Below are positions 6,539 through 24,981 of a DNA stretch of 64,000 bases, piece by piece (positions within the stretch are counted from its first letter, which is position 1; each line of letters opens with the position of its first letter). The notes beneath the pieces were generated by a model, which had not been told where the DNA came from, made no database searches, and saw nothing but the letters and a program-made list of their open reading frames with translations. Origin of the DNA: Rhizobiales bacterium IMCC20636. GTDB taxonomy: Bacteria > Pseudomonadota > Alphaproteobacteria > Rhizobiales > GCA-2746425. The translations under genes were made by a program, and so were the position numbers. The DNA lies in NCBI GenBank assembly GCA_016865015.1, contig CP018226.1, positions 4,123,001 through 4,187,000 of the forward strand. Reading direction: 5' to 3'.

Positions 6539-6581
6539 TGGGTCTCGATCTGTTTGGAGGCGGGGTCGGATCTTGTTTTAT

Positions 6582-7487: not shown

Positions 7488-7688
7488 GGAACTCGGGCAA
7501 GAAAATGTGAATACAGTCGTCAGCTATAGGCGTTTTCCTGATTTGGTGCCAGTGGACATTCAGGCGTTTTAATATGATGATTTGAACCAAGAATATGGAC
7601 GGGCGTTTGGTTTTCAATGCGAACCGGTTGTATCTTGCACTTTGGGGCCTGCAGCCAAACCCCATCAGCCCAATCGGAGTGATCACCT

Positions 7689-9544: not shown

Positions 9545-9554
9545 CAGTGTAAAA

Positions 9555-9574
9555 CCTGACGGAATCCTGTCAGG
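9555..9574 (+). terminator. Possible weak terminator after the deaminase gene
   Basis: CCTGAC and GTCAGG form a 6-bp stem with an 8-base loop, followed by CCTGTTGTTT, a poor T tract. It lies 10 bp after the stop at 9544. Attenuation rather than full termination is possible. Confidence 0.35.
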
Positions 9575-9661
9575 CCTGTTGTTTCAGCGGGCCAAAGGGT
9601 TTTTCCGCTCGCTGTGCGCTGCTAAGAATTTTGAAATACGTTTTGTTCAGGGAAGTTTACA

Positions 9662-10324
9662 ATGGTTACCGAGGTTACCGACGCCAATAATCTGCCAGCA
9701 CCGTTTACAATTGTTGATCATCCACTGATCAAGCACAAGCTGACCATCATGCGGGACAAGAAGACATCGACCGCCGGCTTTCGCCGCCTGCTGCGCGAGA
9801 TATCATTGTTGCTGTGCTATGAGGTGACACGCGATCTGACGCTGACCACCAAGCGTATTCAGACGCCGATGCAGGAAATGGATGCGCCCATTCTGGAAGG
9901 CAAGAAGCTGGTCTTCGCGTCCATCCTGCGCGCTGGCAATGGCCTTTTGGAAGGCATGCTGGATCTGGTGCCTGCCGCCCGCGTCGCCCATATCGGTATG
10001 TATCGCGATCATGATACGCTGGAGCCGGTCGAGTATTACTTCAAGGCTCCGGAAAACCTGGGGGACCGACTGGTGATTGTGGTGGACCCGATGCTGGCAA
10101 CGTCCAATTCAGCCACAGCTGCCATTGAAAAACTGAAAGAGCGCGGCGCAAAGCAGATCCGCTTCCTGTGTCTTCTGGCGGCACCGGAAGGCGTCAAGAA
10201 ATTCCGCGAAAGCCATCCCGATGTACCGATTTATACGGCCGCCCTTGATGAGCGGTTGAACGAGAAGGGCTACATCATGCCCGGCCTTGGGGATGCCGGT
10301 GACCGCATGTACGGCACGAAGTAA
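9662..10324 (+). CDS. upp: Uracil phosphoribosyltransferase
   Basis: A 220-residue enzyme converting uracil and PRPP to UMP. Typical segments are [30 protein letters not shown], the PRPP loop [11 protein letters not shown] and the C-terminal [13 protein letters not shown], which contacts uracil. The PRPP loop has SN where the E. coli type has GG; to my knowledge many alphaproteobacterial enzymes already have GN there. The stop overlaps the start of the following SDR gene by one base (TAATG), so the two may be co-transcribed. Confidence 0.96.
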
Positions 10325-11085
10325 TGAGTTCTGCCCGATTTCCCGATCTTGAGGACAAGGTTGTGCTGGTCACAGGTGGCGGCAGTGGTATTGGCGCGCA
10401 TCTGGTGCGTGGCTTTGCCGAACAGGGCGCCAGGGTTGCGTTCTTCGATATTGCTGATGCGCCCAGTCAGGCACTGGAACAGGAACTGACCGATGCCGGG
10501 CATTCGGTTGCCTTCCTGCATTGTGACCTCACCGATATTCCCGCACTTCAGGCCAGCATTGCAAAAGTGCGCGAACGCTTCGGCCTGATCGGTGTGCTGG
10601 TCAACAATGCAGCTCATGATCAGCGCCATGACATCAAGGATGTCACATCGGACTATTGGGATGAGCGCTTCGCCGTCAATTTGAAGCATCAGTTCTTCTG
10701 CGCGCAGGCAGTGCAGGATGACATGAAGCAACTGGGCGGCGGGTCGATCATCAATATGGGGTCGATCTCCTGGATCATGGGCGCTGGAAACATGCCTTGT
10801 TACACCACGGCAAAATCGGCTGTTGAAGGTCTGACGCGGTCGCTGGCAAGCGTCATGGGCCCGGACAATATTCGCGTGAATACGGTTCTGCCGGGCTGGA
10901 TCATCACCAAGCGGCAGGAAGAATTGTGGCTGGATGATGAGGGTGAAAAATCAATCCTTGAAAACCAGTGCCTGAAACGCAAACTGGTGCCTGATGACAT
11001 GGTTGGTCCGATTTTGTTTCTGTCATCCGATGCGGCTGCAGCCTGCACCAATCAGCGCTTTATTGTGGATGGTGGTTGGGTCTAG
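10324..11085 (+). CDS. SDR family oxidoreductase, aldose 1-dehydrogenase-like
   Basis: A 253-residue short-chain dehydrogenase. It has TGGGSGIG (17-24) for NAD(P), NNAAHD (94-99), and the catalytic Ser149, Tyr160 and Lys164 (YTTAK). Overall it resembles Caulobacter D-xylose 1-dehydrogenase, including the shared MSSA start, the CDL segment, GSISW and the C-terminal VDGGW. It would oxidise an aldose to the lactone. The aldose 1-epimerase just downstream fits that role. Exact sugar specificity is not readable from the sequence. Confidence 0.82.
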   Translation: MSSARFPDLEDKVVLVTGGGSGIGAHLVRGFAEQGARVAFFDIADAPSQALEQELTDAGHSVAFLHCDLTDIPALQASIAKVRERFGLIGVLVNNAAHDQRHDIKDVTSDYWDERFAVNLKHQFFCAQAVQDDMKQLGGGSIINMGSISWIMGAGNMPCYTTAKSAVEGLTRSLASVMGPDNIRVNTVLPGWIITKRQEELWLDDEGEKSILENQCLKRKLVPDDMVGPILFLSSDAAAACTNQRFIVDGGWV

Positions 11086-11195
11086 GCACGTTCGTGTAAC
11101 CGGCCCTGAAACGCCTGACCCGTTTCCTAAGATGATGATCTGCGCTAACACGGACGGCAGACATATCGTCATTGATTCGATTGAAGGTGGGGTTC

Positions 11196-12209
11196 ATGAA
11201 TTTCAAGCGACCGTTTGGCAAATTGGAAGATCGCACCGAGATCAACGAAGTTGAAATCGGCGCAGGCGCATTACGTGCAAAGATACTGACCTGGGGCACT
11301 GTCCTGCGGGATTTGCGACTGGATGGATTTGACCATCCACTGGTACTGGGTTTTGACCGGCTTGAGGATTATACAAATCACTCGCCGTTTTTTGGCGCAA
11401 CTGCGGGGCGCTATGCCAACCGCATCGCCTATGGCCGGTTCCCGCTGGATGGCCGCATGCATCAATTGAGCCAGAATACGGAACCGCATCATTTGCATGG
11501 TGGCCATGCCAGTTTTGGCAAACGACTATGGACCGTGGGCTCGATTGCACCTGATTCCATTCGTCTGACTCTGGTCTCTCCCGATGGCGAGGATGGTTAT
11601 CCCGGCCGGGTGATGGTCAGTTGCACCTACAAGATTGTGCCGCCTGCGTCGCTGCATGTGATTTTTGAAGCAACCACGAATGCGCCAACCTTGATGAATC
11701 TGGCGCATCATTCCTATTTCAATCTGGATGGGTCGCCGGATATTCTAGAGCACTTGCTGCAGATTGAAGCAGATGCCTATACACCGGTCACGCAGGATAT
11801 GATCCCGACCGGAGCCGTGCTGCCGGTAAAGGACACCTTGTTTGATTTCCGCGAGACGCGGCCGGTGCGCACGCTTCATGATGGCCGCCGCATTGCGTTT
11901 GATACAAACTATGTGCTTGCGCTTGCACCACGTCCCCGGCCGGTCCATGCAGCCAGGTTGAGCAGCCCGCGCAATGGATTGTCGATGGATGTTCTGACCA
12001 CAGAGCCCGGCCTGCAATTCTATGACGGGTACAAGCTCAACGTGCCCGTGCCAGGTTTGGACGGACGCACATACGGCGTGAGTGCCGGGCTGTGTCTGGA
12101 GCCACAGCGCTGGCCTGACAGTCCGAACCATCGGCACTTTACGGACTCAACCCTACGGCCAGGCGAAACCTATGTTCAGGAAACCATCTATCGTTTCAAC
12201 ATGTCCTGA
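11196..12209 (+). CDS. Aldose 1-epimerase (galactose mutarotase family)
   Basis: A 337-residue beta-sandwich mutarotase. It shows the substrate and catalytic segments GRYANRI, HHLHGG, the catalytic His in NLAHHSYFNLDG, and the late Glu in GLCLEPQRWPDSPNH. It interconverts alpha and beta anomers of aldoses. ATG 11196 is preferred over upstream TTG 11172 because GGTGGGG lies 6-12 bases ahead of it. The 3' end overlaps the convergent GH116 gene by 22 bp. Together with the SDR it forms a sugar-oxidation pair. Confidence 0.88.
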   Translation: MNFKRPFGKLEDRTEINEVEIGAGALRAKILTWGTVLRDLRLDGFDHPLVLGFDRLEDYTNHSPFFGATAGRYANRIAYGRFPLDGRMHQLSQNTEPHHLHGGHASFGKRLWTVGSIAPDSIRLTLVSPDGEDGYPGRVMVSCTYKIVPPASLHVIFEATTNAPTLMNLAHHSYFNLDGSPDILEHLLQIEADAYTPVTQDMIPTGAVLPVKDTLFDFRETRPVRTLHDGRRIAFDTNYVLALAPRPRPVHAARLSSPRNGLSMDVLTTEPGLQFYDGYKLNVPVPGLDGRTYGVSAGLCLEPQRWPDSPNHRHFTDSTLRPGETYVQETIYRFNMS

Positions 12210-14542
12210 GCCGGGTTAGCCAGTTCCCAGGGTGCTGCATACCAAGCGGCGAGCGGGCGCATGTTCATGGTCGCCCGGAACTTCAATCCGCTTTCCATAT
12301 CTGCCACATCATAAGCGGCGGGTGTGCGGGCAAACATGCCGCGCTGGTAGAGATTGCGGTAAAGCGCCTTGCGGATTTCGTGCCCCTCCTGCTTCAGCCC
12401 CCAGCTTTCCAGTTGCGCGGCGAAGCTGAAGTTGAAGCCGACAATGCTTTCTGAAATCTGGAACGCAATGTGATGATCCGCTTCTACCGCATGTACAGCT
12501 GCTGGCTGCATATTTGCCAGAGTGATAACACCCTCGCCACGTCCGGCTTTTTGAAAGTTTTCGCGGTAGAGTGTTTTCAATGCCAGGACGGCGTGGGTGT
12601 CAGGAACCACAGTTCCAAACCCATAACGCCGCGCCAGAAAAGCGCCGAAGAGCTGCTCTATCAAAAGGCATTGCGAAAACGGGCCGTCCCGGTCCAGTCG
12701 ATAATGCGTGCCCGTCCACAATGCGGTTTCAAAAGCCGCACGCGCTGCGATGGCCTGCTCGTGATAGGCTTTGCCCGCGCCTCTATCTCCAAGCCGATTG
12801 GCTGCTTCCGCCATTGCAAACAGGGCGGCAATCCACAGCCCACCGCAATAGGCGCTGGGGCCTTTCATCGGAATGTTGTCAAAGGTCTGATCCGGAAAGC
12901 CGTCATTTTCGATCAGCCCATCGCCGTCTCTGTCATATTGGTTGAGATGTGCGCAGGCAGCGCGGGCGTGCTCCCAATGATCCCTCAGCCACGGCAAACC
13001 AAAAATCCGCGCATCGCGCACCAGGCCGATCAGGAATTGGGAATTGAGATCTTTCCACTGTGTCGAATCCTGCCAGGCATAGCCATTATTGACGACAAAG
13101 GGGTCTTCGTCCGGACTGCCCTGATCATGGGGCAATGCACCAGCCCGTTTCACAGGGAAGATAGTGTTTGAGCGCATGTGGCGTCGCAACCGGTCATCGT
13201 GCTGCGACACGCTGCAGGCAAAATCATCCATCACCAGACGAGCGGACTGCGGCCAAAGGCGCAGCACGGATTCCGATGCATAAATCCACAAATCAAGAGT
13301 GTTGTAATAGGGATAATCCGGGCATTCGATGATGCCGAAATGGCCTTTATCGGCATCCGTTTCAGCTGTGAAAACCGTCATGCCATCAACCAGCAGATAC
13401 AGCTCGTTCAACATCATGCCGGTGACCTCGGGACGATTTCCAAACTGGGCAGAAATCGTGTCATGCCAGGCATCGATCTGCTGTGACCAATGCTCTGCGC
13501 GCACCAAGGCCTGCTCAACCATCGCAAGTGCGTTGTTGCCGCTTTTGCCCCAAGACTGGGTGTATTTGCGGGCATGGCGACGACCGGACCCGAAGCGAAC
13601 GATCGGCAGATCCCAACTCAGTGCGAAAGTTATGGTTCTGCTTTCACCCGGCGCCAATTCACATTTTGCCGAGACAGCTCCCGCGGGCCGGTTTGTCTCG
13701 ACTTCCTGAAAGCCGGCATCCGCGATCCAGTCGATCGATGGGTCCAGCGTGCCAGTGGCGGAAAAAGAGGGCCAAAAATCGCTGCCATCTGCAGCGGCAT
13801 CAAAGGTTGCGCATTCTGTCAGCACCAGACCGTCATCTCTTGCAACGGATATGGCCATCTGCCCGTCCCCCATATCGGGGGTTTTGGTATTCAGCGAGGC
13901 AGTTTGTCGGTCAAACACAATGCTGTGTGCTGTCTCGTCTGCTACCATTGTGTTGAAGCAACCGGCATGACGCCGATACGGCTTTCCCTTTTCCCGGAAC
14001 GCTCCCACCAGATTGGGGAAATGGAACATCAAGGCTGCCGAAACAGCAGTCTTGGAAGGGTTGTGCAAATGCCATTTGAAGACGGCAACCGGCAGCGTGC
14101 TGGATTCCAGATCGCCCGGAATCAGTGGTGAAAAACTTTCGCAGCGGAACCGGATCGGTCCGGGACATCCGGCATAGTCGTGCCAGGCTTTTGGAAACAG
14201 GGCCGCATACTGGTTGGCCGCTTCTTCCTTGCGCCATGTTGCAGCGGATAGAGAGCCATCTTGCGGGATGGGTTGCAGCATGCAGGAGATCGGGTCTTGC
14301 CCGGCTTGCTGTTGCCACATGGCAAAACCGGCAGATGCTTCATGATGGTGCAGGACCTGTTGCAGGTTCACTGTCCAGCGGGTGAACCGGCCTGATCTGG
14401 ACAACACCATACCGCCGGTTCCAAGGCCGCCGAGTGGCAAGCCGACATCTGAAGTGCCTCCGGTCTGGGTTGAAATTTTTCGTTGCGGTTCAGGACCGGG
14501 CCAGTCCATGGCAGTCCTGAAAGCGGCATCTGAAACACTCAC
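12188..14542 (-). CDS. GH116 family glycosidase (GBA2/beta-glucosidase-like)
   Basis: A 784-residue protein with the two-domain GH116 layout: an N-terminal beta domain starting at GGTSDVGLPLGGLGTGG and a C-terminal (alpha/alpha)6 domain. The likely nucleophile Glu lies in GIIECPDYPYYNTLD, and the acid/base Asp in ENDGFPDQTFD. The family includes bacterial beta-glucosidases and beta-xylosidases and the human glucosylceramidase GBA2. The GTG start at 14542 has AGGAG 6 bases upstream and overlaps the EamA stop (GTGA). No signal peptide is seen, so it acts in the cytoplasm on imported glycosides. Confidence 0.87.
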   Translation of the reverse strand: MSVSDAAFRTAMDWPGPEPQRKISTQTGGTSDVGLPLGGLGTGGMVLSRSGRFTRWTVNLQQVLHHHEASAGFAMWQQQAGQDPISCMLQPIPQDGSLSAATWRKEEAANQYAALFPKAWHDYAGCPGPIRFRCESFSPLIPGDLESSTLPVAVFKWHLHNPSKTAVSAALMFHFPNLVGAFREKGKPYRRHAGCFNTMVADETAHSIVFDRQTASLNTKTPDMGDGQMAISVARDDGLVLTECATFDAAADGSDFWPSFSATGTLDPSIDWIADAGFQEVETNRPAGAVSAKCELAPGESRTITFALSWDLPIVRFGSGRRHARKYTQSWGKSGNNALAMVEQALVRAEHWSQQIDAWHDTISAQFGNRPEVTGMMLNELYLLVDGMTVFTAETDADKGHFGIIECPDYPYYNTLDLWIYASESVLRLWPQSARLVMDDFACSVSQHDDRLRRHMRSNTIFPVKRAGALPHDQGSPDEDPFVVNNGYAWQDSTQWKDLNSQFLIGLVRDARIFGLPWLRDHWEHARAACAHLNQYDRDGDGLIENDGFPDQTFDNIPMKGPSAYCGGLWIAALFAMAEAANRLGDRGAGKAYHEQAIAARAAFETALWTGTHYRLDRDGPFSQCLLIEQLFGAFLARRYGFGTVVPDTHAVLALKTLYRENFQKAGRGEGVITLANMQPAAVHAVEADHHIAFQISESIVGFNFSFAAQLESWGLKQEGHEIRKALYRNLYQRGMFARTPAAYDVADMESGLKFRATMNMRPLAAWYAAPWELANPAQDMLKR

Positions 14543-15465
14543 CGATATCTCCTGCGATACAGGGTATAGACATGCGGCAGCATGACACCAGCGATGATGA
14601 TTGTCATGCCAATCCAATCAAACAGGCGGGGGACATCACCCAGAATGATGATTGCGGCAACGGACCCGAGAACGGGACTCAAGGCCGCATAGATCGATAC
14701 CCAGGCCACCTGTAGATGTCGCAATGCGAAATTGAATATCGCATAATTCAACACCGTCATGGCCAGCACCAGATACGCCATTGCAAAGATTTGAAGGGGC
14801 GTACCCAGCACGATGGCAGACAAGGTGTTGGTCGCCAGTGCCAGACAGAAAACTGCGATCAGAGCACCTGTGACTTGGAGGGTTGCCACCTGAAACCAGG
14901 GCACATCCCCACTGTTCATTCTTCGACCAATGATCTGACTGAAACTGGCGCACATGACGGCTAACAACACCAATGCATTGCCGATCAAATCCCCCTCGCC
15001 TGCCGCTTCCCGACTGAGACTGACGATGAGCAGACCGCCAAACCCGATACAACTGCCAATCGCCAGCGACCAATGGGCGTTTTCCCGCAAGATCAGATAG
15101 CCGAGAGCTGAGGCTATCAGCGGTAACAGTCCCCACATCAGAGCCAAAGAAACACCGTCTGTTCTGGCACCTCCATGGATACTCAATGCCAAAACCGCAC
15201 CCGGCGCCATAATGCCCCACAGCAGGGTTTTCCCGAAACGCCGGTTGAGGGTCGGGAGCTGATGTCGGGCAAGACAGATTGCCCACATAATCAAAGTGGC
15301 TCCGAAAAACTGCCACAGGAGGACAGTTGTCGGTGCGAAATCAACCACCAAAGTTTGCTGCAGCATGAAGCCGCTCGAAAAAATTGCAACTGAGGAAAGC
15401 TGCGCCAGATGCGCAAGCAAAATACATCTTTGGGTCGTGCGTTCGTCCAAAATCAATCCACCCAA
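14539..15465 (-). CDS. DMT superfamily transporter, EamA family
   Basis: A 308-residue integral membrane protein with ten predicted hydrophobic segments in two EamA halves (the second around QVTGALIAVFCLALAT to IIIAGVMLPHVYTLY). Members are exporters or metabolite permeases. The start is uncertain: TTG 15465 or TTG 15450, the latter with GGTGGA upstream. It is the first gene of an operon with the GH116 enzyme, divergent from the TRAP operon. The shared 23-base operator candidate lies directly upstream, so it may be in the same regulon and could export a catabolic end product. Confidence 0.85.
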   Translation of the reverse strand: MGGLILDERTTQRCILLAHLAQLSSVAIFSSGFMLQQTLVVDFAPTTVLLWQFFGATLIMWAICLARHQLPTLNRRFGKTLLWGIMAPGAVLALSIHGGARTDGVSLALMWGLLPLIASALGYLILRENAHWSLAIGSCIGFGGLLIVSLSREAAGEGDLIGNALVLLAVMCASFSQIIGRRMNSGDVPWFQVATLQVTGALIAVFCLALATNTLSAIVLGTPLQIFAMAYLVLAMTVLNYAIFNFALRHLQVAWVSIYAALSPVLGSVAAIIILGDVPRLFDWIGMTIIIAGVMLPHVYTLYRRRYR

Positions 15466-15469
15466 CGTC

Positions 15470-15492
15470 GAGTCTTGTAAAAGACATAAGAC
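15470..15492. promoter_or_regulatory. Shared operator candidate, copy 1 (EamA/TRAP divergent promoter)
   Basis: The 23 bases here are identical to 19368-19390. The core is a 14-bp inverted repeat GTCTTgtaaAAGAC followed by atAAGAC, so three half-sites of the GTCTT/AAGAC type are present. It is followed in both places by (C/T)TG and TTAGG. GntR-type repressors often use such GTCTT arms. No regulator gene is adjacent. Confidence 0.75.
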
Positions 15493-15594
15493 CTGTTAGG
15501 GTCATGGAAGGGAAGAAATAAATTGACCGCAGCGGCGGTATCGTCTTGCATAATGAGGTCCGGTGAGGATCGGTGGGGCGTTGCAGGGGGAAGC

Positions 15595-16149
15595 ATGATG
15601 GCAGCCTTGACTGGCTTTATAGCATTTCTGACGCGAATCAATGACGCAGTCTTCTGGGTTGGCAGACAACTCTCATGGATGGCAATCGGGGTGATGGTTT
15701 TGATCATCCTTGCTCAGGTATTTGCGCGCTATATCCTCAATGATGCCCTGCCATGGTCTGAAGAACTGGCCCGCGTCCTGATGTTGTGGTTGACCGGATT
15801 GATGGCGCCATCGGCCTATCGCTGGGGTGCCTTTGTTGCAATCGACATGTTTCGAGACCTGCTGCCGCGCTGGCCGCGCGCGATTCTGACCCTCTGTCTG
15901 TTTGGCATTTCACTGATCGTGCTGATCGTGCTGACCTATTATGGCTGGAAACACATCAATAGCGGCTGGTTGTTCGGCTCGGCCACTTTGAAAATCAAAC
16001 TGGCCTGGGTTTACATGGCGCTTCCTGTCGGATTCCTGTTGATGATTTCGGCCTGTATCGAGCTGATTGCCAAGGAAATACATGAGGCGCTTGATCCCGA
16101 TGTCAAATATATGTCCGGCGATAACACGCCAGAATTTGTCGCGGAGTAA
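15595..16149 (+). CDS. TRAP transporter small permease subunit (DctQ type)
   Basis: A 184-residue protein with four membrane segments (first about MAIGVMVLIILAQVFARYIL) and the DctQ signature LPWSEELARVLMLWLT. It is the small membrane subunit of a tripartite ATP-independent periplasmic transporter. The start is placed at ATG 15595 with AGGGGG upstream; the open frame extends further but has no support. The large subunit follows after 5 bp and the binding protein after that. Confidence 0.92.
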   Translation: MMAALTGFIAFLTRINDAVFWVGRQLSWMAIGVMVLIILAQVFARYILNDALPWSEELARVLMLWLTGLMAPSAYRWGAFVAIDMFRDLLPRWPRAILTLCLFGISLIVLIVLTYYGWKHINSGWLFGSATLKIKLAWVYMALPVGFLLMISACIELIAKEIHEALDPDVKYMSGDNTPEFVAE

Positions 16150-16154
16150 AGCCC

Positions 16155-17492
16155 ATGCTTGTGTTGTTCCTGCCTCTCTTTCTGGTGCTTTTGATGATCG
16201 GCCTGCCGGTGTTTTTCGGCCTGCTGTTTGCGCCCGGTTTTCTGCTTTGGATGAATGGACAGGAGCGCGATCTGGCGCTGCTCTACCGCAACGTCTTCAA
16301 CGGCATTGACTCCTTTCCATTGATGGCCATTCCGTTCTTCATGCTGGCCGGTGAAATGATGAACCGCGGCGGTATCACCATGCGCCTGGTGGAGTTCAGC
16401 CAGTCGATGATGGGGCATTTCCGGGGCGGCCTTGCCCATGTCAATATTCTGTCCTCCATGTTGTTTGCCGGGCTGTCCGGTTCGGCGGTGGCTGACACCT
16501 CGGCACTGGGGTCGATGCTGATTCCTGCCATGGAAAAACAGGGCTATACGCGCCGTTTTGCGGCTGCCATTACTGCGGCTTCGTCAGTCATTGGGCCAAT
16601 CATCCCACCCTCGGGCATCATGATCATTTACGCCTATGTGATGGGCGAGTCGGTTGCAGCGCTGTTTTTGGCAGGAATAGTTCCGGGCATTCTGGTGGGG
16701 GTCGGCCTGATGGTTGTGACCGGCATGATGGCACAGCGCTACAATTATCCGGTCGCCAGCGAGCGCGCCAATTGGGGGCAACGCTGGCAAGCGCTGGTCA
16801 AGGCGTTTTTCCCGCTGCTGACGCCCGTCATCATTCTTGGCGGCATTCTGGGCGGCGTGATGACACCGACCGAAGCTTCTGCAGTTGCCGCAGCCTATGC
16901 GTTCTTTGTCGGCATGTTCCTGTTGAAGACGATCAGTTTCAAAGACCTTCCTTCAATCCTGACCAAGGCCGCACTCACCTCGTCGGTTGTACTGTTGCTG
17001 GTCGGAGCGGCGATGGCTTTCAAAACCGTGGTCAGCCTGTCCCGCGCCCCTGAAGCACTTGCAGAAATGATCCTGACCCTGTCCAGCGATCCGTTGATGT
17101 TGCTGTTTCTGATCAATATCCTGCTGTTCATCGTCGGCATGTTTCTGGATGCCGGTCCCGCGATCATCATTCTGGGGCCAATCCTTGGACCGATCTTCAT
17201 CAATATGGGCATTGATCCCGTTCACTTTGCGATCATCATGAGCGTCAACCTGACAGTTGGCCTGGCAACACCGCCGATGGGGCTGGTGTTGTTTGTTGCC
17301 TCAAGCGTCTCCGGCGAGAAGGTTGAGGCTATCTCAAGGGCGATCCTGCCATTCCTTGCTGTTGAAGTTGTTGTAATTTTTCTGATCACCTATTTTCCGG
17401 TAATCTCCATGGGCGTGCCATGGCTGACCGGGTTCGTGTCGCCGGATTCCGATCTTTTGGGACCGGTTCTGAGACTGTTTTTCGGCAGCTAG
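16155..17492 (+). CDS. TRAP transporter large permease subunit (DctM type)
   Basis: A 445-residue membrane protein of about 12 segments, the ion-coupled channel subunit of a TRAP transporter. Typical stretches are FPLMAIPFFMLAGEMMNRGG, SGSAVADTSALGSMLIP and the second-repeat counterpart MLFLINILLFIVGMFLDAG. It is directly downstream of the DctQ gene and upstream of the binding protein, in the order Q-M-P. Its substrate is set by the binding protein, probably the monosaccharide or glycoside processed by neighbouring enzymes. Confidence 0.95.
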   Translation: MLVLFLPLFLVLLMIGLPVFFGLLFAPGFLLWMNGQERDLALLYRNVFNGIDSFPLMAIPFFMLAGEMMNRGGITMRLVEFSQSMMGHFRGGLAHVNILSSMLFAGLSGSAVADTSALGSMLIPAMEKQGYTRRFAAAITAASSVIGPIIPPSGIMIIYAYVMGESVAALFLAGIVPGILVGVGLMVVTGMMAQRYNYPVASERANWGQRWQALVKAFFPLLTPVIILGGILGGVMTPTEASAVAAAYAFFVGMFLLKTISFKDLPSILTKAALTSSVVLLLVGAAMAFKTVVSLSRAPEALAEMILTLSSDPLMLLFLINILLFIVGMFLDAGPAIIILGPILGPIFINMGIDPVHFAIIMSVNLTVGLATPPMGLVLFVASSVSGEKVEAISRAILPFLAVEVVVIFLITYFPVISMGVPWLTGFVSPDSDLLGPVLRLFFGS

Positions 17493-17521
17493 TTTGCGGA
17501 ATTCAGAGAATTGACATTCGC

Positions 17522-17550
17522 TTGACACATCTGGGCGAATAAACTGAGAT
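17522..17550 (+). promoter_or_regulatory. Possible sigma-70-type promoter for the DctP gene
   Basis: TTGACA at 17522-17527 is followed after 17 bases by TGAGAT at 17545, in the 80-bp gap before the binding-protein gene. GGGAGGA just before its ATG is a strong ribosome site. A separate promoter would give the usual excess of binding protein over permease. The -10 match is weak. Confidence 0.35.
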
Positions 17551-17572
17551 TCATTGTAAAGGGAGGACTTCC

Positions 17573-18661
17573 ATGAAACTCAAATCCTTACTGTCAACCT
17601 TCGCGGCTTTGGCCGTTGGAGCCGCCTTTATGGGCAGCGGCATAATATCCGATGCTCAGGCCGCTTCGCATGCCGAGAAAATCACTTTGCGTGCAACTGC
17701 CAATTCCAACGAAAATGATGAAGACTATGATGGTCTGGTCGTTTTCAAGAACTATGTTGAAAACGCATCCAATGGTGCCATAGCGGTTGATTTGTTCATC
17801 GGCACTCAATTGTGCTCGAAAGGCGCTGAATGTCTGCAGGGCATCGCAGACGGATCGATTGATATCTACATCTCGACATCTGGCGGTGCCGCTGGCATCT
17901 TCCCGTATGTGCAGGTGCTTGATCTGCCTTATCTGCTGCGTGATGACCGTATTGCCGAAGAAGTTCTGCAGGGTGACTTCGTGCGCCAGATGCGTGCCCA
18001 GATGCTGGCCGATTCCGGTGACACCATTCGCCTGATGACAATTGGCAACACCGGTGGCTGGCGGAACTTTGCCAACACACAGCGTCCCATTCAGAAACCT
18101 TCCGATATGAAGGGTCTGAAAATTCGGACCGTGGTGGCTGACCTGCCGCAGGAACTGGTCAAGGCACTGGGTGCCAGCCCGACGCCAATTCCCTGGCCTG
18201 AACTTTTCACATCCTTTCAGACTGGAGTTGTTGAAGGGTCGAAAAACGGCATCACCGATGTCATGGGCATGAAGTTCCCGGATGCCGGCCTGCAGTATAT
18301 GACACTTGATGGCCATGCTTACATGGGCGCGTTGTGGTTCATGAACAATGATCGTTTCATGAGCATGGACGAAGGCATGCGCCGCGTCATCGTTGACGGT
18401 TTCGCAGCCTTGCAACAGGCAACCTTTGCCTCACCGAAGCGTAAATCCATTGCCGCCTATGAAGAATTTGTCGCCGGTGGCGGCAACCTTTATGTGCCGA
18501 CCCCTGAAGAAAAAGCCATGTTCCGGGACGCAGCAGCGCCTGTGTTCGACTGGTTCAAGAGCAATATTCGTGAAGGCGAAACCTTCTATCAGGCTCTGGT
18601 TGAAGCCGCAGCGGATGCTGAAGCTAAAATCGATGGTGCCGCAATGATGGATGTCAAATAG
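17573..18661 (+). CDS. TRAP transporter substrate-binding protein (DctP family)
   Basis: A 362-residue secreted protein with a signal peptide of about 31 residues ending in DAQAAS. The DctP fold is recognisable from ITLRATANS, the GLKIRT segment whose Arg binds the ligand acid group in most family members, ALGASPTPIPWPELFTSFQTGVVEG, and the C-terminal helices. Retention of that Arg suggests an acidic ligand, although sugar-specific TRAP proteins exist. A strong terminator follows at 18716. Confidence 0.94.
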   Translation: MKLKSLLSTFAALAVGAAFMGSGIISDAQAASHAEKITLRATANSNENDEDYDGLVVFKNYVENASNGAIAVDLFIGTQLCSKGAECLQGIADGSIDIYISTSGGAAGIFPYVQVLDLPYLLRDDRIAEEVLQGDFVRQMRAQMLADSGDTIRLMTIGNTGGWRNFANTQRPIQKPSDMKGLKIRTVVADLPQELVKALGASPTPIPWPELFTSFQTGVVEGSKNGITDVMGMKFPDAGLQYMTLDGHAYMGALWFMNNDRFMSMDEGMRRVIVDGFAALQQATFASPKRKSIAAYEEFVAGGGNLYVPTPEEKAMFRDAAAPVFDWFKSNIREGETFYQALVEAAADAEAKIDGAAMMDVK

Positions 18662-18715
18662 TCCAGTCGCCAAAAACTGACGGACCTTGCGGTCCGGCAT
18701 GCCAAACCTGAATCA

Positions 18716-18750
18716 GGCCGCTTCGACACAATGTTGAAGCGGCCTTTTTT
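18716..18750 (+). terminator. Rho-independent terminator of the TRAP operon
   Basis: A 9-bp stem GGCCGCTTC/GAAGCGGCC with an 11-base loop is followed by six T residues. A smaller hairpin CGGACC-TTGC-GGTCCG lies just upstream at 18681-18696. The next gene is on the other strand. Confidence 0.93.
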
Positions 18751-18765
18751 ATGCGTGATAGACCC

Positions 18766-19284
18766 TCAATATTCCGGGTAGAGGTGATCCTTGTAATCCT
18801 CGATCAGCAATTCAGCCTTGGCGATTTGCCCCGGGGTCATTTTCTTGACCACTTCATTCATGGAGATTGCTGCATCCGGATCTCCGCCAATGGCCGACAG
18901 TGTGTACCAGGCAAAGGCGCGGGGCAGATCTGGCGCCGGTATTCCGCGGCCGACCTCATAATACCAGCCAATGCCGGATTGCGCGCCTGGGTGCCCCTTG
19001 AGCGAGGCCCGCAGATACCAGTCGAATGCGCGTTCATCATCACGCTCCACACCCAGTCCCATGGCATACATCACACCAATCAGTTCTTCGGCATCTGCGT
19101 TCCCGCCCTGGGCAAGTGGCAGAAAAATCTCGCGCGCTTCCTCGAATTTGTTGGCTTTCATCGCGGTCAAACCATCAAACAGATCGGCCGCAAAAGCACC
19201 TGATGTCGCCATTCCGGCCATTGCGAGCACACCGATCATGCAATTGCGTAGTCCGGTTTTTCGGGGAAGATGGTCTTTGATCAT
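18766..19284 (-). CDS. Sel1-like/TPR repeat secreted protein
   Basis: A 172-residue protein with a signal peptide ending in SGAFAADLF. Two to three Sel1-type repeats follow (AEELIGVMYAMGLGVERDDERAFDWYL and AQSGIGWYYEVGRG are the consensus-like parts). Such repeats mediate protein contacts. ATG 19284 is chosen because AGGAG lies 6 bases ahead. It faces the TRAP operon end and is divergent from the kinase operon. Its role in the sugar locus, if any, is unknown. Confidence 0.8.
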   Translation of the reverse strand: MIKDHLPRKTGLRNCMIGVLAMAGMATSGAFAADLFDGLTAMKANKFEEAREIFLPLAQGGNADAEELIGVMYAMGLGVERDDERAFDWYLRASLKGHPGAQSGIGWYYEVGRGIPAPDLPRAFAWYTLSAIGGDPDAAISMNEVVKKMTPGQIAKAELLIEDYKDHLYPEY

Positions 19285-19367
19285 TTCGTTCTCCTTGCAG
19301 CTCATCTTCTACAATAGAAATGCAGCGCGGAAACGCAATGCATCACGTGTTTGATTTGCGACAGTGT

Positions 19368-19390
19368 GAGTCTTGTAAAAGACATAAGAC
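19368..19390. promoter_or_regulatory. Shared operator candidate, copy 2 (kinase operon promoter)
   Basis: Identical over 23 bases to 15470-15492, with GTCTTgtaaAAGAC plus atAAGAC. It ends 64 bp before the kinase start. Downstream TTGATTAGGAT is also similar to the other copy. The repetition at two promoters of functionally related operons is the main evidence for regulation. Confidence 0.75.
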
Positions 19391-19454
19391 TTGATTAGGA
19401 TTGAAAACGGGCAAAACAATGCCCAATCCACACCCTGAATTTCGGGAACAATTC

Positions 19455-20387
19455 ATGGCCACGGTCATCACACTTGGCGTTGCAGTGCAGGATTTTGTCT
19501 TTTCCGTAGATGAAATGCCGACTGAGCCACGCAAATACAGAGCAAAAGATCTTGCGGTCATCGGTGGTGGATGCGGCGCAACCGCTGCTGTGGCTGTGGC
19601 ACGTCTGGGCGGTGATAGCCGTCTGATCTCCCGGCTTGGGAATGACATGACGGCCCAGATCATCATCGGCGAGCTTGAAGCTGACGGCGTCGACTGTTCC
19701 GGCATGAAACGCTTTGAGGGCTACAAATCGTCTCTGTCAGCGATCATGGTCGACAGCAGCGGCGAGCGGCTGGTCATGGGCTTTCGCGACGATGCAATGC
19801 CGACGGATCCGGGTTTTGTGGCAGATCATTTTGCAACGGTAGAAACAGCAGATGTGGTGCTGGCCGACAGCCGATGGGCCGAAGGTGCGTTGCGCCTGTT
19901 TGAATTGGCGAACGCCAAGGGCATTCCAGCGGTTCTGGACGGCGAGATGCCGTTTGGTGATACAGAACGTAAAGCGGCACGCCTGGCGACGCACCCGGTT
20001 TTCTCGGCTCAGGGGCTGCAAGACCATACGCATGAAACCGAGCTTCTGACCGGATTGCTGGCGGCCAGCGCCATGCGCGAAGGCCGCTGGACTGCCGTGA
20101 CCGACGGACCCAATGGCGTCTATGTTGCGCGCAATGGCAGGCTCAGCCGATTGCCCGGACACCAGATCGATGTGGTCGACACACTCGGAGCCGGTGATGT
20201 GTGGCATGGGGCTTTTGCCCTTGCCTTGGCGGAACGCCAGAGCGACGAGGATGCAATGATATTCGCCTCCGGCGCTGCCGCCCTGAAATGCACCCAGTTT
20301 GGCGGCCGGAAAGGCACGCCGACCCGGCAGGCACTTAACAAATTTATTCAATCACACCCACTCCAGATGGAGCCTATCTCCTTATGA
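19455..20387 (+). CDS. PfkB family carbohydrate kinase, YihV (sulfofructose kinase)-like
   Basis: A 310-residue ribokinase-fold kinase with the catalytic GAGD motif (Asp248, VVDTLGAGDVWHGA). It aligns throughout with E. coli YihV: PTExxKYxAK (22-31), GGGxxATAAVAxARLG (37-52), SAIMVD (95-100), LADxRW (136-141) and the C-terminal ASGxAALKCT. Lys27 and Arg140 match YihV Lys27 and Arg138, which I recall as sulfonate ligands; the third, Asn109, is not conserved (Gly109 here). It probably phosphorylates a ketose at C1. ATG 19455 is preferred; ATG 19419 is possible. The stop overlaps the aldolase start (ATGA). Confidence 0.85.
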   Translation: MATVITLGVAVQDFVFSVDEMPTEPRKYRAKDLAVIGGGCGATAAVAVARLGGDSRLISRLGNDMTAQIIIGELEADGVDCSGMKRFEGYKSSLSAIMVDSSGERLVMGFRDDAMPTDPGFVADHFATVETADVVLADSRWAEGALRLFELANAKGIPAVLDGEMPFGDTERKAARLATHPVFSAQGLQDHTHETELLTGLLAASAMREGRWTAVTDGPNGVYVARNGRLSRLPGHQIDVVDTLGAGDVWHGAFALALAERQSDEDAMIFASGAAALKCTQFGGRKGTPTRQALNKFIQSHPLQMEPISL

Positions 20388-21439
20388 CACATTCACTTTC
20401 CGCCGGTAAATTATGGGGCCTGCGCCGGATGGCCGATGCTCAGGGCCGTTTTAAAATGCTTGCCGTCGATCAGCGTCCGCCCATCAAGAACCCGATCGCC
20501 AAACATTATGGCACCGCAGAAGCGCCTTACAAGGATGTCACCAAATTCAAGCTGATGCTTCTTGAAGAACTGCAGAGCAGTTCAACAGCGATGTTGCTGG
20601 ACCCCCATTTTGCCCTGCCCAAGGGCCTGCGCATGATCGACCCGACGAACGGTCTGATCGTGACGCTGGAAGATTCTCTGTTCGAAGAGACTGATGGCGG
20701 GCGCATGTCAGCTGAAATTGACAATTGGAGTGTTGAGAAAATCAAGCGCGTCGGCGGTGACGCGGTCAAGGTTCTCGCCTGGTATCGCCCGGATGCGTCG
20801 CCCCAAGTGTGTCAGGCGCAGAAAGACTTCACCAAGCGTATTGGTGATGCCTGTGCCCGTTTTGATATTCCGTTTCTGTTTGAACTGCTGGTCTATCCAC
20901 TGCCCGATGATGCGCATCAAACCAAGGATTATGTGGAGATGCAGGGCAAGGATTCAGCCCATGTGCTGGAGAGCGTCGCCGAGTTTGCTCATGCGGATTA
21001 TGGCGTTGACGTTTTCAAGCTGGAAAGCCCTGTCAGTGCCGCTGTTGCCGCCGGAAACGGATCAATGGGGGCTGACGCCGTTCAGGCTCTGTTTGATGAA
21101 ATGGGGCGCCTGTCAGCGCGGCCATGGGTGATGTTGTCGGCTGGTGCCGACAAGGCTGCATTTACAAAGATTCTCGGCCATGCCTATCAAGCCGGTGCAT
21201 CGGGATATCTGGCAGGACGGGCTATCTGGCTGGATGCCTTTGGAGCGTTTCCGGACTGGGATGCTGTGCGTGCCGGATTGCAGTCCGATGCTGTTCCGTA
21301 CATGCAGTCGATCAACACCTTGACCGACACAGAGGCACTTCCCTGGTTTGATCATGCACGCTTTGGCGGGACAACAGGGCCGAATTTTGCTATTGAAGAT
21401 GACGATGCAAATTTCCGGACCTCATACTCCGGCTTTTAA
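20384..21439 (+). CDS. Class I aldolase, YihT/LacD family
   Basis: A 351-residue (beta/alpha)8 aldolase. The start region FKMLAVDQR matches YihT and LacD. The Schiff-base lysine is Lys212 (VFKLESPV, equivalent to YihT Lys193), and GASGYLAGRAIW carries Arg279, equivalent to YihT Arg253. It should split a ketose 1-phosphate or bisphosphate into DHAP and an aldehyde. The protein is about 60 residues longer than YihT, mostly at the C-terminus. It is coupled to the kinase by a 4-base overlap and followed by the isomerase after 11 bp. Confidence 0.85.
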   Translation: MTHSLSAGKLWGLRRMADAQGRFKMLAVDQRPPIKNPIAKHYGTAEAPYKDVTKFKLMLLEELQSSSTAMLLDPHFALPKGLRMIDPTNGLIVTLEDSLFEETDGGRMSAEIDNWSVEKIKRVGGDAVKVLAWYRPDASPQVCQAQKDFTKRIGDACARFDIPFLFELLVYPLPDDAHQTKDYVEMQGKDSAHVLESVAEFAHADYGVDVFKLESPVSAAVAAGNGSMGADAVQALFDEMGRLSARPWVMLSAGADKAAFTKILGHAYQAGASGYLAGRAIWLDAFGAFPDWDAVRAGLQSDAVPYMQSINTLTDTEALPWFDHARFGGTTGPNFAIEDDDANFRTSYSGF

Positions 21440-21450
21440 GGGGTTTCCGC

Positions 21451-22836
21451 ATGTCCAGCATTGGTGTTCTGGCCCTCGGCCGCCCCACATTTGATGTCGC
21501 GTTTGCAGAACAATTGCTGGCCGAAGCGCGCGTCGAACTGCTGGCAAGTGGCCATGAGATTATCGGCGGCGAAACATTACTGTTTGACGCCGATGCGACA
21601 GTGTCGGCGCTGGACGATCTGAAATCCCGCAAGCTGGACCTTGTTCTGATCCTGCAGGTAACCTTTACCGATTCCAGCATGACGGTGCGGATCGCCAGTG
21701 AATTGAATGCGCCTCTGGCGCTGTGGGCGTTTCCGGAACCGCGTCTCGGCGGACGGTTGCGGTTGAATGCATTTTGTGGCCTGAACCTTGCCGCGCATGC
21801 GTTAGGTTTGAATAACACTGCATATTCCTATGCCTATTCCGCACCATCGGAAACAGATGTAAAGGCTTTGCTGAAGGACTTTCTGTCCGGCAAACGCCAG
21901 GCTTCGCCCCGGTTTGGCGAAGATGTCACCGCTGATACGAGTGCCGTGCGCGCTGCCATTGATCGTCTTAAAGGGAAGCGCATCGGTCGTATTGGAGAGC
22001 GTCCCGAAGGGTTTGCGACCTGTCGTTATAACCCTAAGACCGTCGAACGGCTGACCGGCGTGACCATTGATGAAATCACACTTGATAATTTGTTCCAGTC
22101 GGCCCGCAAGGTGCCTGCCGAAACCATATCCAAAAGCCGGAAGACGGTGTCTGGCCTTGGCGGCCTTGCAGACGTTGATCAACCGCAACTGGATCGGTCA
22201 CTGGCTTTGCATGGCGCGTTGCAAACCATGCAGAAAAGTCAGGACTACAGTGCATTTGCCATTCGTTGCTGGCCAGAGACTTTTACCGAATATGGTGGTG
22301 CCATCTGCGGACCAGTGGGCATGATGGGAGAAGCCAAAGTACCATGCGCCTGCGAAGCCGATGTCTATGGTGCCCTGACGAACCTGCTTGTTCAGGAACT
22401 AACCGGTCTTCCACCGTTTCTGGTTGATCTGGTCGATCTGGATGAGGCCAGCGACACCGGCGTGGTCTGGCATTGTGGCCAGGCCCCGATATCGATGTGT
22501 GATCCGGAGTTCGAGGCTCGGGCGAGCATTCACTCCAACCGGAAAATGCCGCTGCTGTTCGAATTTCCATTGAAACCGGGGCGGGTGACGCTTGCGCGCA
22601 TCAGTCAAGCGCGGGGCAAGCAAAGCCTGTTTCTGGCAACCGGAGACATGCAGACAGCACCACTGGCTTTTTCCGGAACAGCTGGCGTCATGAAATTTGA
22701 TGCTGGCGTCAGGACAACTCTCAAAGCTGTGATGGATGCCGGACTGGAACACCACACGACCCTCGCCTATGGCGATCATGCGGAAGCATTGACGGCAGCG
22801 GCCAGCGCTCTCGGTCTTCCTGTGATCATGGTTTGA
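21451..22836 (+). CDS. L-fucose/L-arabinose isomerase-like sugar isomerase
   Basis: A 461-residue protein of the COG2407 type. The metal and catalytic region is visible in IRCWPETF, CACEADVYGALT (Glu302), LVDLDEASDTGVVWHCG (Asp331 region) and the late GLEHHTTLAYGDH. The family interconverts aldoses and ketoses with a divalent metal; sulfoquinovose isomerases of some Gram-positive pathways also belong here, as I recall. In this operon it would supply the ketose to the kinase. The exact substrate is not identified. Confidence 0.82.
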   Translation: MSSIGVLALGRPTFDVAFAEQLLAEARVELLASGHEIIGGETLLFDADATVSALDDLKSRKLDLVLILQVTFTDSSMTVRIASELNAPLALWAFPEPRLGGRLRLNAFCGLNLAAHALGLNNTAYSYAYSAPSETDVKALLKDFLSGKRQASPRFGEDVTADTSAVRAAIDRLKGKRIGRIGERPEGFATCRYNPKTVERLTGVTIDEITLDNLFQSARKVPAETISKSRKTVSGLGGLADVDQPQLDRSLALHGALQTMQKSQDYSAFAIRCWPETFTEYGGAICGPVGMMGEAKVPCACEADVYGALTNLLVQELTGLPPFLVDLVDLDEASDTGVVWHCGQAPISMCDPEFEARASIHSNRKMPLLFEFPLKPGRVTLARISQARGKQSLFLATGDMQTAPLAFSGTAGVMKFDAGVRTTLKAVMDAGLEHHTTLAYGDHAEALTAAASALGLPVIMV

Positions 22837-22847
22837 AGGAGACCGGG

Positions 22848-24953
22848 ATGAGTGCTCTTCCGCAAATCACCAAGATTGATGACGCCGTTCCGTTTGATGT
22901 TCTGAACCCCAATTGGAGTGCCTGCCGCCAGACGGAAATACTGGGCGCAGCCACCATCGTGTCGCCGGGGCAATTGATCCTCGACACGACCGATGGCCCG
23001 TTCCAGATCACGACGCTGGAGAACGGAGTCCGGTTGAGTCTGGGTCCACAAGACAAACCGGATTACGGTATTCTGGATGGCGACCCGGCCCCCTTTCCGG
23101 CGGAGGTGACCCAGGCTGATGGCCAAACCACCATCAGTTGGGGCTGGTTTACACTGACCGTGCGGCACCATCCGATGGCGATTGATTTCCACAGATGGGA
23201 CCGCCCCATTCTGGAATCAGCCCGCGATGGACATTTCGTGCGTGAGTTCCGCCTTCCTCCCTTTGCACGTGTCGACAAGGGCTGGCTGGTCAATTTCGAT
23301 CTGACCAGCCAGGACCCGGTTTATGGACTTGGCGAAAAATGGGGTCCGCTGGACAAGCGTGGGCAACTTGTCCACTCCTTTACTCATGACGCTTTGGGTG
23401 TGAATTCGGAGCGATCCTACAAAAACTGCCCATTTGCCTGGTCGCCGGCAGGCTGGGGCATTTTCGTTCATACGCCCGCACCGGTTTTGCATGCGATCGG
23501 CTTCTCGCAATGGTCACACCGATCCTATGGGCTGCTGGTGGAGGATGAAGCTCTCGATCTCTTCCTCATAGCCGGCAAGACACCGGAGCGCATACTCGAA
23601 CGCTACACGCGCCTGACCGGACGTCCCGTCATGCCACCGCTCTGGAGCCTTGGGGCGATCTTGTCGAAAGCCTATTACCAGACGCCGTCCGAGTTTCTGG
23701 AAGCTGCCCGCACTGTGCGCAGCTACGGGATGCCTTGCGACACGATCACATTTGACGGCCGCGCCTGGCAGGACACGGATACACGGTTCCATTTCGATTT
23801 CGACCCGAAGCGGTTCGACGATCCCAAGGCGGTGATTGATCAGGTCAAGGAGATGGGGTTCCATGTGTGCTGCTGGGAATATCCTCTGGTTTCGGTCAAC
23901 AGCCCGATATATGAAGAGTTAAGCGAGAAAGGCTACTTTCTGACGGACCGGCGCACTGACCTGCCCTATCGCTATGAATGGGATATGGAGCCCTTTGGCC
24001 AGGTGCTGACGCCGTTGCCGGATTCCAGCCTGATCGATTTCACCAATCCGGCTGCCTATGAGTGGTGGCGTGATCAGCACAAGGACCTGTTCGCGCTGGG
24101 CGTCGATATGATCAAGAGTGATTTTGGTGAGCAGGTAGAGCCAGACTGCAAGGCCTTCAATGGCGACACTGGCCACAGACTGCACAATGTCTATCCGCTG
24201 CTGTATAACAAATGCGTCTATGAGGCCTCGGAAATGTATTCGGCGGACGGCGCTTGTCTTCTGGCGCGCGCGGGCTGGGCCGGTTCCCAGCGCTATCCGG
24301 CCCAATGGGGCGGTGATCCACAGGCCGACTGGGAAGGACTGGCCGCATCGTTGCGTGGCGGTTTGTCCTGGGCCAATTCAGGCGCTGCCTGTTATGCGAC
24401 GGATATTGGTGGCTTTTACGGCGATACACGTGATGCAGAATTGTTCGTGCGCTGGACTCAGGCGGCGGTCTTCTCATCCCATATGCGGTTCCACGGCATT
24501 GGTGACCGCGCACCATGGTCTTATGGGGACCGCGCGGCCAATGCGGTTATGGCTGCGCTGAAACTGCGCTACAGATTGCTGCCCTATCTTTGGAAGGCTT
24601 TGAAGCAAGCCTGTGAAACCGGCCTGCCTGTCCAGCGTCCCATGGCGGTGGCCTTTCCAGACGACCCGGCGGCCTGGGGCTTTGAACTGCAATTCATGTT
24701 CGGGGCTGATATTCTGGTCTCCCCGATCGTGCGGGCACACGGCATTGGCAAGACCTATCTGCCTGCTGGCAACTGGCGTCATCTAGTGACGCATGAGCTT
24801 ATTGCCGGTGGCCGGGTCATCAATCATCAACTTGATCTGGAAAGCATGGCCGTTTATGTGCAAGAAGGAGCAACAATTGCTTTTGGTCCTGCTGTTCAGC
24901 ATACAGGACAGATCGGGGATATTCCTCTGATTGAGGAAACCTGCAAGTATTGA
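22848..24953 (+). CDS. GH31 family alpha-glycosidase, YicI-like
   Basis: A 701-residue cytoplasmic enzyme with N-terminal beta domain, catalytic barrel and C-terminal beta domain. The nucleophile is Asp425 (MIKSDFGE) and the acid/base Asp490 (AQWGGD), both in YicI-like context, as are SLRGGLS and DIGGFYGDT. The YicI specificity pair Cys307-Phe308 is replaced by Gly304-Arg305 (TFDGRAW), and a second Arg follows at 313. This suggests a substrate with a polar or charged C5/C6 group rather than xylose. ATG 22848 has AGGAG 7 bases upstream. It is the last gene of the kinase-aldolase-isomerase operon. Confidence 0.9.
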   Translation: MSALPQITKIDDAVPFDVLNPNWSACRQTEILGAATIVSPGQLILDTTDGPFQITTLENGVRLSLGPQDKPDYGILDGDPAPFPAEVTQADGQTTISWGWFTLTVRHHPMAIDFHRWDRPILESARDGHFVREFRLPPFARVDKGWLVNFDLTSQDPVYGLGEKWGPLDKRGQLVHSFTHDALGVNSERSYKNCPFAWSPAGWGIFVHTPAPVLHAIGFSQWSHRSYGLLVEDEALDLFLIAGKTPERILERYTRLTGRPVMPPLWSLGAILSKAYYQTPSEFLEAARTVRSYGMPCDTITFDGRAWQDTDTRFHFDFDPKRFDDPKAVIDQVKEMGFHVCCWEYPLVSVNSPIYEELSEKGYFLTDRRTDLPYRYEWDMEPFGQVLTPLPDSSLIDFTNPAAYEWWRDQHKDLFALGVDMIKSDFGEQVEPDCKAFNGDTGHRLHNVYPLLYNKCVYEASEMYSADGACLLARAGWAGSQRYPAQWGGDPQADWEGLAASLRGGLSWANSGAACYATDIGGFYGDTRDAELFVRWTQAAVFSSHMRFHGIGDRAPWSYGDRAANAVMAALKLRYRLLPYLWKALKQACETGLPVQRPMAVAFPDDPAAWGFELQFMFGADILVSPIVRAHGIGKTYLPAGNWRHLVTHELIAGGRVINHQLDLESMAVYVQEGATIAFGPAVQHTGQIGDIPLIEETCKY

Positions 24954-24981
24954 ACCTCGCCAAACTCTAATGAGGCCTGTC

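Follow-up and report, generated by a model that had tools for sequence, protein, structure and literature searches.

A 23-base element as the predicted operator of a GntR-family regulator linking sulfosugar and sulfolactate genes in Rhizobiales bacterium IMCC20636

Results

Two copies of a 23-base element in divergent intergenic regions

The DNA analysed here, which we call the window, is a 64,000-nucleotide stretch of the chromosome of Rhizobiales bacterium IMCC20636 (contig CP018226.1, positions 4,123,001 to 4,187,000). It carries genes for a tripartite ATP-independent periplasmic (TRAP) transporter and an operon headed by a PfkB-family kinase gene, and each of these is preceded on the + strand by the same 23-base element, GAGTCTTGTAAAAGACATAAGAC, at 15470-15492 and 19368-19390. 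A preliminary description of this DNA, made from the sequence alone, had reported that the two copies are identical and lie ahead of divergent promoters. We confirmed the match letter for letter, and both copies sit in divergent intergenic regions. As described, the element has three half-sites, with a 14-bp palindrome (GTCTT-GTAA-AAGAC) followed by two bases and then a third half-site, AAGAC. In dinucleotide shuffles of the window the expected number of matches to the 23-mer was 0.00, even with up to three mismatches allowed, which puts the repeat far outside what chance would give, as the preliminary description had held. The similarity of the bases 3' of the two copies is also real (CCTGTTAGGGT and CTTGATTAGGAT), and these bases are kept in congeners. 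They would fit a -10-like TAGGRT placed 16-17 bp past a -35-like TTGTAA within the palindrome. A sigma-70 consensus scan of both window promoters found no promoter-like site, and the promoter reading is weak for this reason. The copies and their surroundings are as follows.

15470-15492, + strand: predicted operator copy 1, between eamA (- strand) and the TRAP operon (+ strand); palindrome 15472-15485, third half-site 15488-15492
15475-15502, + strand: putative TRAP promoter, TTGTAA (within the operator), 16 bp, TAGGGT
19368-19390, + strand: predicted operator copy 2, between a sel1-like gene (- strand) and the kinase operon (+ strand); palindrome 19370-19383, third half-site 19386-19390
19373-19401, + strand: putative kinase-operon promoter, TTGTAA, 17 bp, TAGGAT

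A third copy beside a remote GntR gene and suyAB

A pattern search of the whole genome (4,790,321 bases) with the 23-mer, allowing up to three mismatches, returned a single further site, CAGTCTTATATAAGACATAAGAC, at C1:503049-503071, 3.6 Mb from the window on the same chromosome. The genome thus holds only three such sites in 4.79 Mb, all at promoters, rather than many unrelated occurrences. The third site separates a gene for a GntR/UTRA regulator from suyA, suyB, slcC-like and comC-like genes, which are encoded on the opposite strand. The palindrome of this site has the centre ATAT, as opposed to GTAA in the window copies. The regulator has an N-terminal GntR winged helix (PF00392, 78.9 bits, residues 34-97) and a C-terminal UTRA effector domain (PF07702, 101.9 bits, residues 125-259). 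The preliminary description had placed the regulator outside the locus, behind a copy of the motif, and had named the GntR, LacI and DeoR families; since the third copy adjoins a GntR gene, that prediction holds, with GntR as the best candidate family.

The suy operon encodes a small subunit and a UxaA/galactarate-dehydratase-type large subunit along with the SlcC- and ComC-like proteins. Its products match PF04295, PF20629, 2-Hacid_dh and Ldh_2, and the ComC-like protein matches the L-sulfolactate dehydrogenase model NF040650. These are predicted to be sulfolactate sulfo-lyase genes. Breakdown of sulfosugars by the sulfo-Embden-Meyerhof-Parnas (sulfo-EMP) route gives sulfolactaldehyde (SLA), which can be oxidised to sulfolactate, and the remote suy operon would therefore continue the pathway begun by the window genes. 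SuyAB converts (R)-sulfolactate to pyruvate and sulfite, while SlcC and ComC interconvert the sulfolactate enantiomers (PMC9594981). Neither the sulfosugar/sulfolactate pathway nor the link to suyAB was recognised in the preliminary description.

Conservation of the element and its association with the GntR gene

Three congeners (G002, G003 and G004) have the same layout, with sites ahead of dctQ, the kinase gene and the GntR gene, so that conservation in orthologous promoters, proposed earlier as a check, was found for both window sites. In G004, copy 2 retains the intact 23-mer and, for the most part, the sequence as far as the putative -10, in the midst of diverged flanks. The fourth congener, G001, has neither the motif nor an ortholog of the GntR gene (best match 33%), and it also lacks the isomerase, SuyB, the TctC transporter and SoeA. 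Across the genus, the regulator, its sites and the pathway genes are present or absent as one set.

We then surveyed 398 genomes of the order, calling the GntR regulator at E <= 1e-50 and the motif at no more than one mismatch. The regulator was found in 46 genomes and the motif in 38. Motif presence was 28/46 among genomes with the GntR gene and 10/352 among those without it (Fisher p ~1e-22, or 2e-19 with the bacterium's own genus excluded), although these p-values overstate the evidence because related genomes are not independent. When only SuyB-bearing genomes are considered, the motif occurs in 25 of the 42 with the regulator and in one of the 38 without it. It mostly lies close 5' of the GntR gene on the same strand, and in most orthologs that gene is divergent from suyA. 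Four genomes of two other families (G378 and G287 of f42, G044 and G083 of f41) have the sugar operon adjoining GntR-suyAB, with the motif before the kinase operon or a TRAP-kinase operon. A control family (f44), which has TRAP genes, a canonical YihQ and an isomerase 42-46% identical to that of the window, has neither the GntR gene nor the motif. In the 10 genomes with the motif and without the regulator, the palindrome centres are mostly of another, coding-like type, for example GTCTTCNNGAAGAC. Both the genome scan and the comparative genomics support the earlier view of the element as a link between the TRAP and kinase operons.

These data bear on two explanations that do without this regulator. 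The 23-mer could be a shared promoter element, such as that of an alternative sigma factor, or the leftover of a local duplication, since it overlaps the putative -35 box and the downstream bases are alike at both promoters. Its dyad symmetry with a conserved centre, the way its presence tracks one GntR gene over the surveyed genomes, the differing flanks of the two copies, its retention in G004 despite flank divergence and the different centre at the GntR-gene copy all speak against this, and we give the idea almost no weight. A different, unlinked regulator might instead recognise the window sites, with the GntR-gene copy as merely one of its targets, given that a regulator may be encoded away from its sites. 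Such an arrangement is very improbable, as in other families the GntR gene adjoins suyAB as well as the sugar genes and, in most cases, is preceded at short distance by the motif, and the congener that lacks the gene has no motif.

Several further observations were made in the surveyed genomes. In G375 (L132, 9322-10473), the match to suyB is broken into several pieces that overlap, a pattern that a frameshift or a misassembly could give. G004 has an extra one-mismatch site (L090:4680-4700; G004:C1:992679) between functionally unrelated genes for flavodoxin-fold and extensin-like proteins. In G091, a perfect motif (L094:6417-6437) stands at the 5' end of an ATP-binding cassette (ABC) transporter operon encoding an ATPase, a solute-binding protein and a permease, and this transporter may be a sulfosugar importer.

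Window genes and the predicted sulfosugar pathway

The genes around the two window sites resemble a sulfosugar operon of the sulfo-EMP type in which enzymes of different kinds are combined. They and their neighbours are listed here.

11172-12209, + strand: aldose 1-epimerase galM, candidate mutarotase adjoining the GH116 gene (PF01263)
12188-14617, - strand: GH116 glycosidase, behind eamA (PF04685, PF12215)
14539-15465, - strand: EamA-type transporter, divergent from operator 1 (PF00892)
15523-16149, + strand: dctQ, TRAP small permease (PF04290); likely start ATG near 15595-15598, from alignment
16155-17492, + strand: dctM, TRAP large permease (PF06808, TIGR00786)
17573-18661, + strand: dctP, TRAP solute-binding protein (PF03480); PDB matches include isethionate-binding DctP 8t9t
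18766-19305, - strand: Sel1-repeat protein, divergent from operator 2 (PF08238)
19401-20387, + strand: PfkB kinase, sulfofructose-kinase-like; open reading frame from TTG, likely start ATG 19419 or 19455
20384-21439, + strand: class-I DeoC/LacD-type aldolase, candidate sulfosugar-1-phosphate aldolase (PF01791, PRK12858; YihT also matched)
21451-22836, + strand: fucose-isomerase-type isomerase, SftI/SqvD-like (NF048012, Fucose_iso_C)
22833-24953, + strand: GH31 glycosidase lacking the YihQ signature; a 54% identical GH31 occurs in sulfo-ASDO-like loci (see below)
24931-25983, + strand: PhnD-like periplasmic binding protein, last gene of the kinase operon (PF12974)

The kinase is 41% identical to E. 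coli YihV, and its top PDB match is sulfofructose kinase 7ag6. The isomerase scores 269 bits (E 5e-80) against the sulfoquinovose (SQ) isomerase model NF048012 (SftI), below the model's cutoff of 700 bits. For the GH31 enzyme we compared residues R301, W304 and Y508, which we take to be the sulfonate-binding residues of YihQ and which are present in the YihQ sequence. The window GH31 keeps the arginine and the catalytic D405 and D472, and both W304 and Y508 are phenylalanine, on which ground we rejected it as a canonical YihQ. Domain and model scans of the kinase-operon proteins found no SLA reductase or dehydrogenase among them.

Although the regulator and operator may well be as proposed, the sugar could be other than SQ, for example sulfofucose, another sulfohexose or its glycoside. 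The GH31 without the YihQ signature and the LacD/tagatose type of the aldolase would fit this, as would the case of Paracoccus wurundjeri, where a kinase-aldolase pair homologous to this one lies near suyAB and was discussed for sulfofucose (PMC12421959). The kinase's identity to YihV and the isomerase's match to the SQ isomerase model point to SQ, however; isomerases 42-46% identical to this one occur with canonical YihQ, and the same GH31 type is found in a sulfo-ASDO-like cluster. We regard a sugar other than SQ as possible but doubtful.

The GH31 proteins of the window (22833-24953), L239 (11085-13151) and L240 (6794-8809) form a clade with the signature DGRAWQDTDTRF, which occurs with sulfosugar clusters of differing pathways and lacks the YihQ sulfonate-binding residues. 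This clade is a candidate for a second type of sulfosugar-releasing GH31. Other families (L195, L200) also keep the Sel1-repeat gene between their TRAP and kinase genes, pointing to a role for it in the pathway. An open reading frame of 596 aa at 26027-27817 on the - strand has no Pfam match.

Core-only sites ahead of tctC and soeA-like genes

The core palindrome, without the third half-site, also stands ahead of a TctC-TctAB transporter (C1:2680606) and of a molybdopterin oxidoreductase with Fe-S and DmsC-type subunits (C1:4021746). The latter genes are arranged like those of a SoeABC sulfite dehydrogenase, with the molybdopterin subunit at 6823-9825 of L114, the Fe-S subunit at 9801-10637 and the DmsC-type anchor at 10647-11561. 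The soeA-like site is conserved in all four genomes compared, and the tctC site in G002 and G003, with a slightly shifted palindrome in G004. Genome-wide, the core-only pattern with mismatches gave 40 matches, compared with 109 for a reversed control, and is thus at or below background. For this reason we treat both as weaker members of the regulon, retained as candidates because congeners conserve them. Single core matches at C1:1586834 and C1:1605363, the second within coding-looking sequence, were not counted, given the background level of the core. The tripartite tricarboxylate transporter (TTT) SlcHFG is the named sulfolactate uptake system of other bacteria (PMC5812351), and the TctC-TctAB transporter, which is of the TTT type, is possibly a sulfolactate importer.

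Further relatives

A related-locus scan of genome contigs found one true relative only. Plasmid pTAV3 of Paracoccus versutus (L110) encodes two GntR paralogs of this group, at 14977-15699 and 23751-24452. One paralog adjoins slcC-comC and a TTT transporter, and the other adjoins suyAB. The latter is 39% identical to the suyAB-linked GntR of this genome and has only the core palindrome, with one mismatch, at 24522-24535. On a plasmid of a Sinorhizobium mexicanum strain listed for sulfofucose catabolism (PMC12421959), a second site with two mismatches (L108:17549-17569) precedes unannotated genes at a distance of 2.6 kb from the GntR-suyA site.

In other classes, this type of regulator and the motif occur together in clusters of differing content. 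L238 resembles a sulfo-Entner-Doudoroff (ED) cluster, with SDR, dehydratase, HpcH/HpaI aldolase, aldehyde dehydrogenase, TRAP and TauE genes. L239 and L240 are like the sulfo-ASDO (alkanesulfonate dioxygenase) type, with a TauD dioxygenase, aldo/keto reductase, TauE, SSF and GH31 (domains read in L239), and the GH31 is 54% identical to that of the window. In L241 (G404, 6106-16837), the GntR gene and motif lie beside ComA (phosphosulfolactate synthase family), three MmgE/PrpD genes, a TTT transporter and TauE, possibly an uncharacterised sulfonate pathway.

Comparison with known systems

The operator class is already known from a 2015 paper, which gives nearly the same sequence, TCTTATGTCTTATATAAGACATAAGA, as the predicted motif of the HutC-subfamily regulator SdhR and reports that extra half-sites near GntR operators are common (PMC4494728). 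The window motif corresponds to three of the four half-sites of the SdhR motif, both groups have the recognition-helix signature VSQGTVRKA...RRQG.GTFV, and the motif also accompanies homologs whose genes lie between mdh and sdhCDAB. This helix stretch differs in the 33% homolog of G001. Unlike SdhR, the regulator described here adjoins suyAB rather than sdh or mdh; no sdh promoter in the genome bears the motif, and the SdhR-context sequences form their own 100/100 clade that excludes it, the present regulator falling in a different clade linked to suyAB. Tree and neighbour genes thus reject orthology with SdhR. The shared recognition helix and operator suggest that DNA-binding specificity is common to both groups and that the regulon differs.

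A regulator gene named SuyR stands beside suyAB in Chromohalobacter salexigens (Denger and Cook 2010, cited in PMC6018796), and the present regulator is similarly placed, adjoining suyAB with slcC and comC. SuyR and the GntR group described here are likely identical. CsqR (YihW) of E. coli, for which SQ is an effector (PMC10991401), likewise acts locally on a sulfo-EMP operon that includes a kinase of the YihV type. In contrast to the present regulator, it belongs to the DeoR family and is linked to its operon, in a cassette without sulfolactate desulfonation. We found no similarity between CsqR-type regulators and this GntR protein and rejected that assignment.

As in the tandem sulfofucolytic-sulfolactate sulfolyase pathway of P. 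wurundjeri (PMC12421959), sulfosugar breakdown is joined to SlcC/ComC/SuyAB, and the P. wurundjeri cluster also has a PfkB-DeoC/LacD pair. That system differs in being an ED-type route with ABC uptake, and its paper discusses no regulator. Hybrid sulfo-EMP clusters with mixed enzyme types are known (PMC9594981), and the window resembles them in its fucose-isomerase-type isomerase (as SqvD), PfkB kinase (as YihV) and class-I aldolase (YihT family). It differs from them in that the operon lacks canonical YihQ and SLA reductase or dehydrogenase, and in that the sulfolactate genes are remote and carry the same operator. Our literature search, which covered little subscription content, found no paper in which a GntR operator is connected with sulfolactate or SQ.

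Discussion

The sites, their conservation, their co-occurrence with the GntR gene and the protein families are established by the observations above. The 23-mer is very probably the operator of a SuyR-type GntR/HutC regulator that controls a sulfosugar-to-sulfite regulon by repression. A GntR/UTRA dimer would bind the 14-bp palindrome GTCTTRTAWAAGAC, a palindrome length also used by NagR, another HutC regulator (PMC4333415), and the third half-site AAGAC may hold an extra subunit or a second dimer. Because the palindrome overlaps the putative -35 boxes at both window promoters, the bound regulator should block RNA polymerase. Binding of a sulfonated intermediate (a sulfosugar or sulfolactate) or of sulfite to the UTRA domain would then release it. 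We infer binding, repression, inducer and exact substrate. In the window, the regulon would comprise TRAP uptake of the sulfosugar and its sulfo-EMP-type breakdown by the kinase, aldolase, isomerase and GH31; at the remote locus, sulfolactate epimerisation and desulfonation by SlcC, ComC and SuyAB; and, through the core-only sites, the TTT transporter and the SoeABC-like sulfite dehydrogenase.

The same GntR protein could act as an activator or dual regulator instead, seeing that activation is possible from sites next to -35 boxes and that CsqR, which belongs to the SQ cassette of E. coli, has the annotation of a dual regulator. We consider this unlikely, as the putative -35 falls within the palindrome at both window promoters and HutC-type regulators such as NagR and DasR are described as repressors.

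Several observations weigh against a repressor-operator pair governing a sulfosugar-to-sulfite regulon. No motif with at most one mismatch was found in 18 of the 46 genomes with the GntR gene, several of which have degenerate or separate sites and some no visible site. The tctC and soeA sites lack the third half-site. The GH31 lacks W304 and Y508 and the SftI score falls below its cutoff, so that SQ is no more than a candidate substrate. Finally, no sulfolactaldehyde dehydrogenase was found in the window locus or the suyAB locus; an enzyme converting SLA to sulfolactate is likewise missing in P. wurundjeri (PMC12421959).

The clusters found in other classes allow a broader, tentative proposal, namely that one operator-defined GntR/HutC group has been recruited repeatedly to differing sulfonate pathways (sulfo-EMP with sulfolactate, and those of L238, L239/L240 and L241). 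The operator would have stayed fixed through changes of the controlled pathway and, in the case of SdhR, even of the kind of metabolism. These regulators may share an inducer, possibly sulfite or the sulfonate group in general.

Sulfoquinovose and sulfolactate are major organic sulfur pools, and beyond E. coli CsqR the literature we found describes almost nothing of how their breakdown is regulated. What is new here is the predicted regulator-operator assignment, together with a predicted SQ-sulfolactate-sulfite regulon. The pair would connect the sugar operons with the desulfonation of sulfolactate and the oxidation of sulfite, and would provide a motif for locating sulfonate genes wherever they are placed. 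It would also offer a case, open to testing, in which an operator was kept and the set of genes under it changed.

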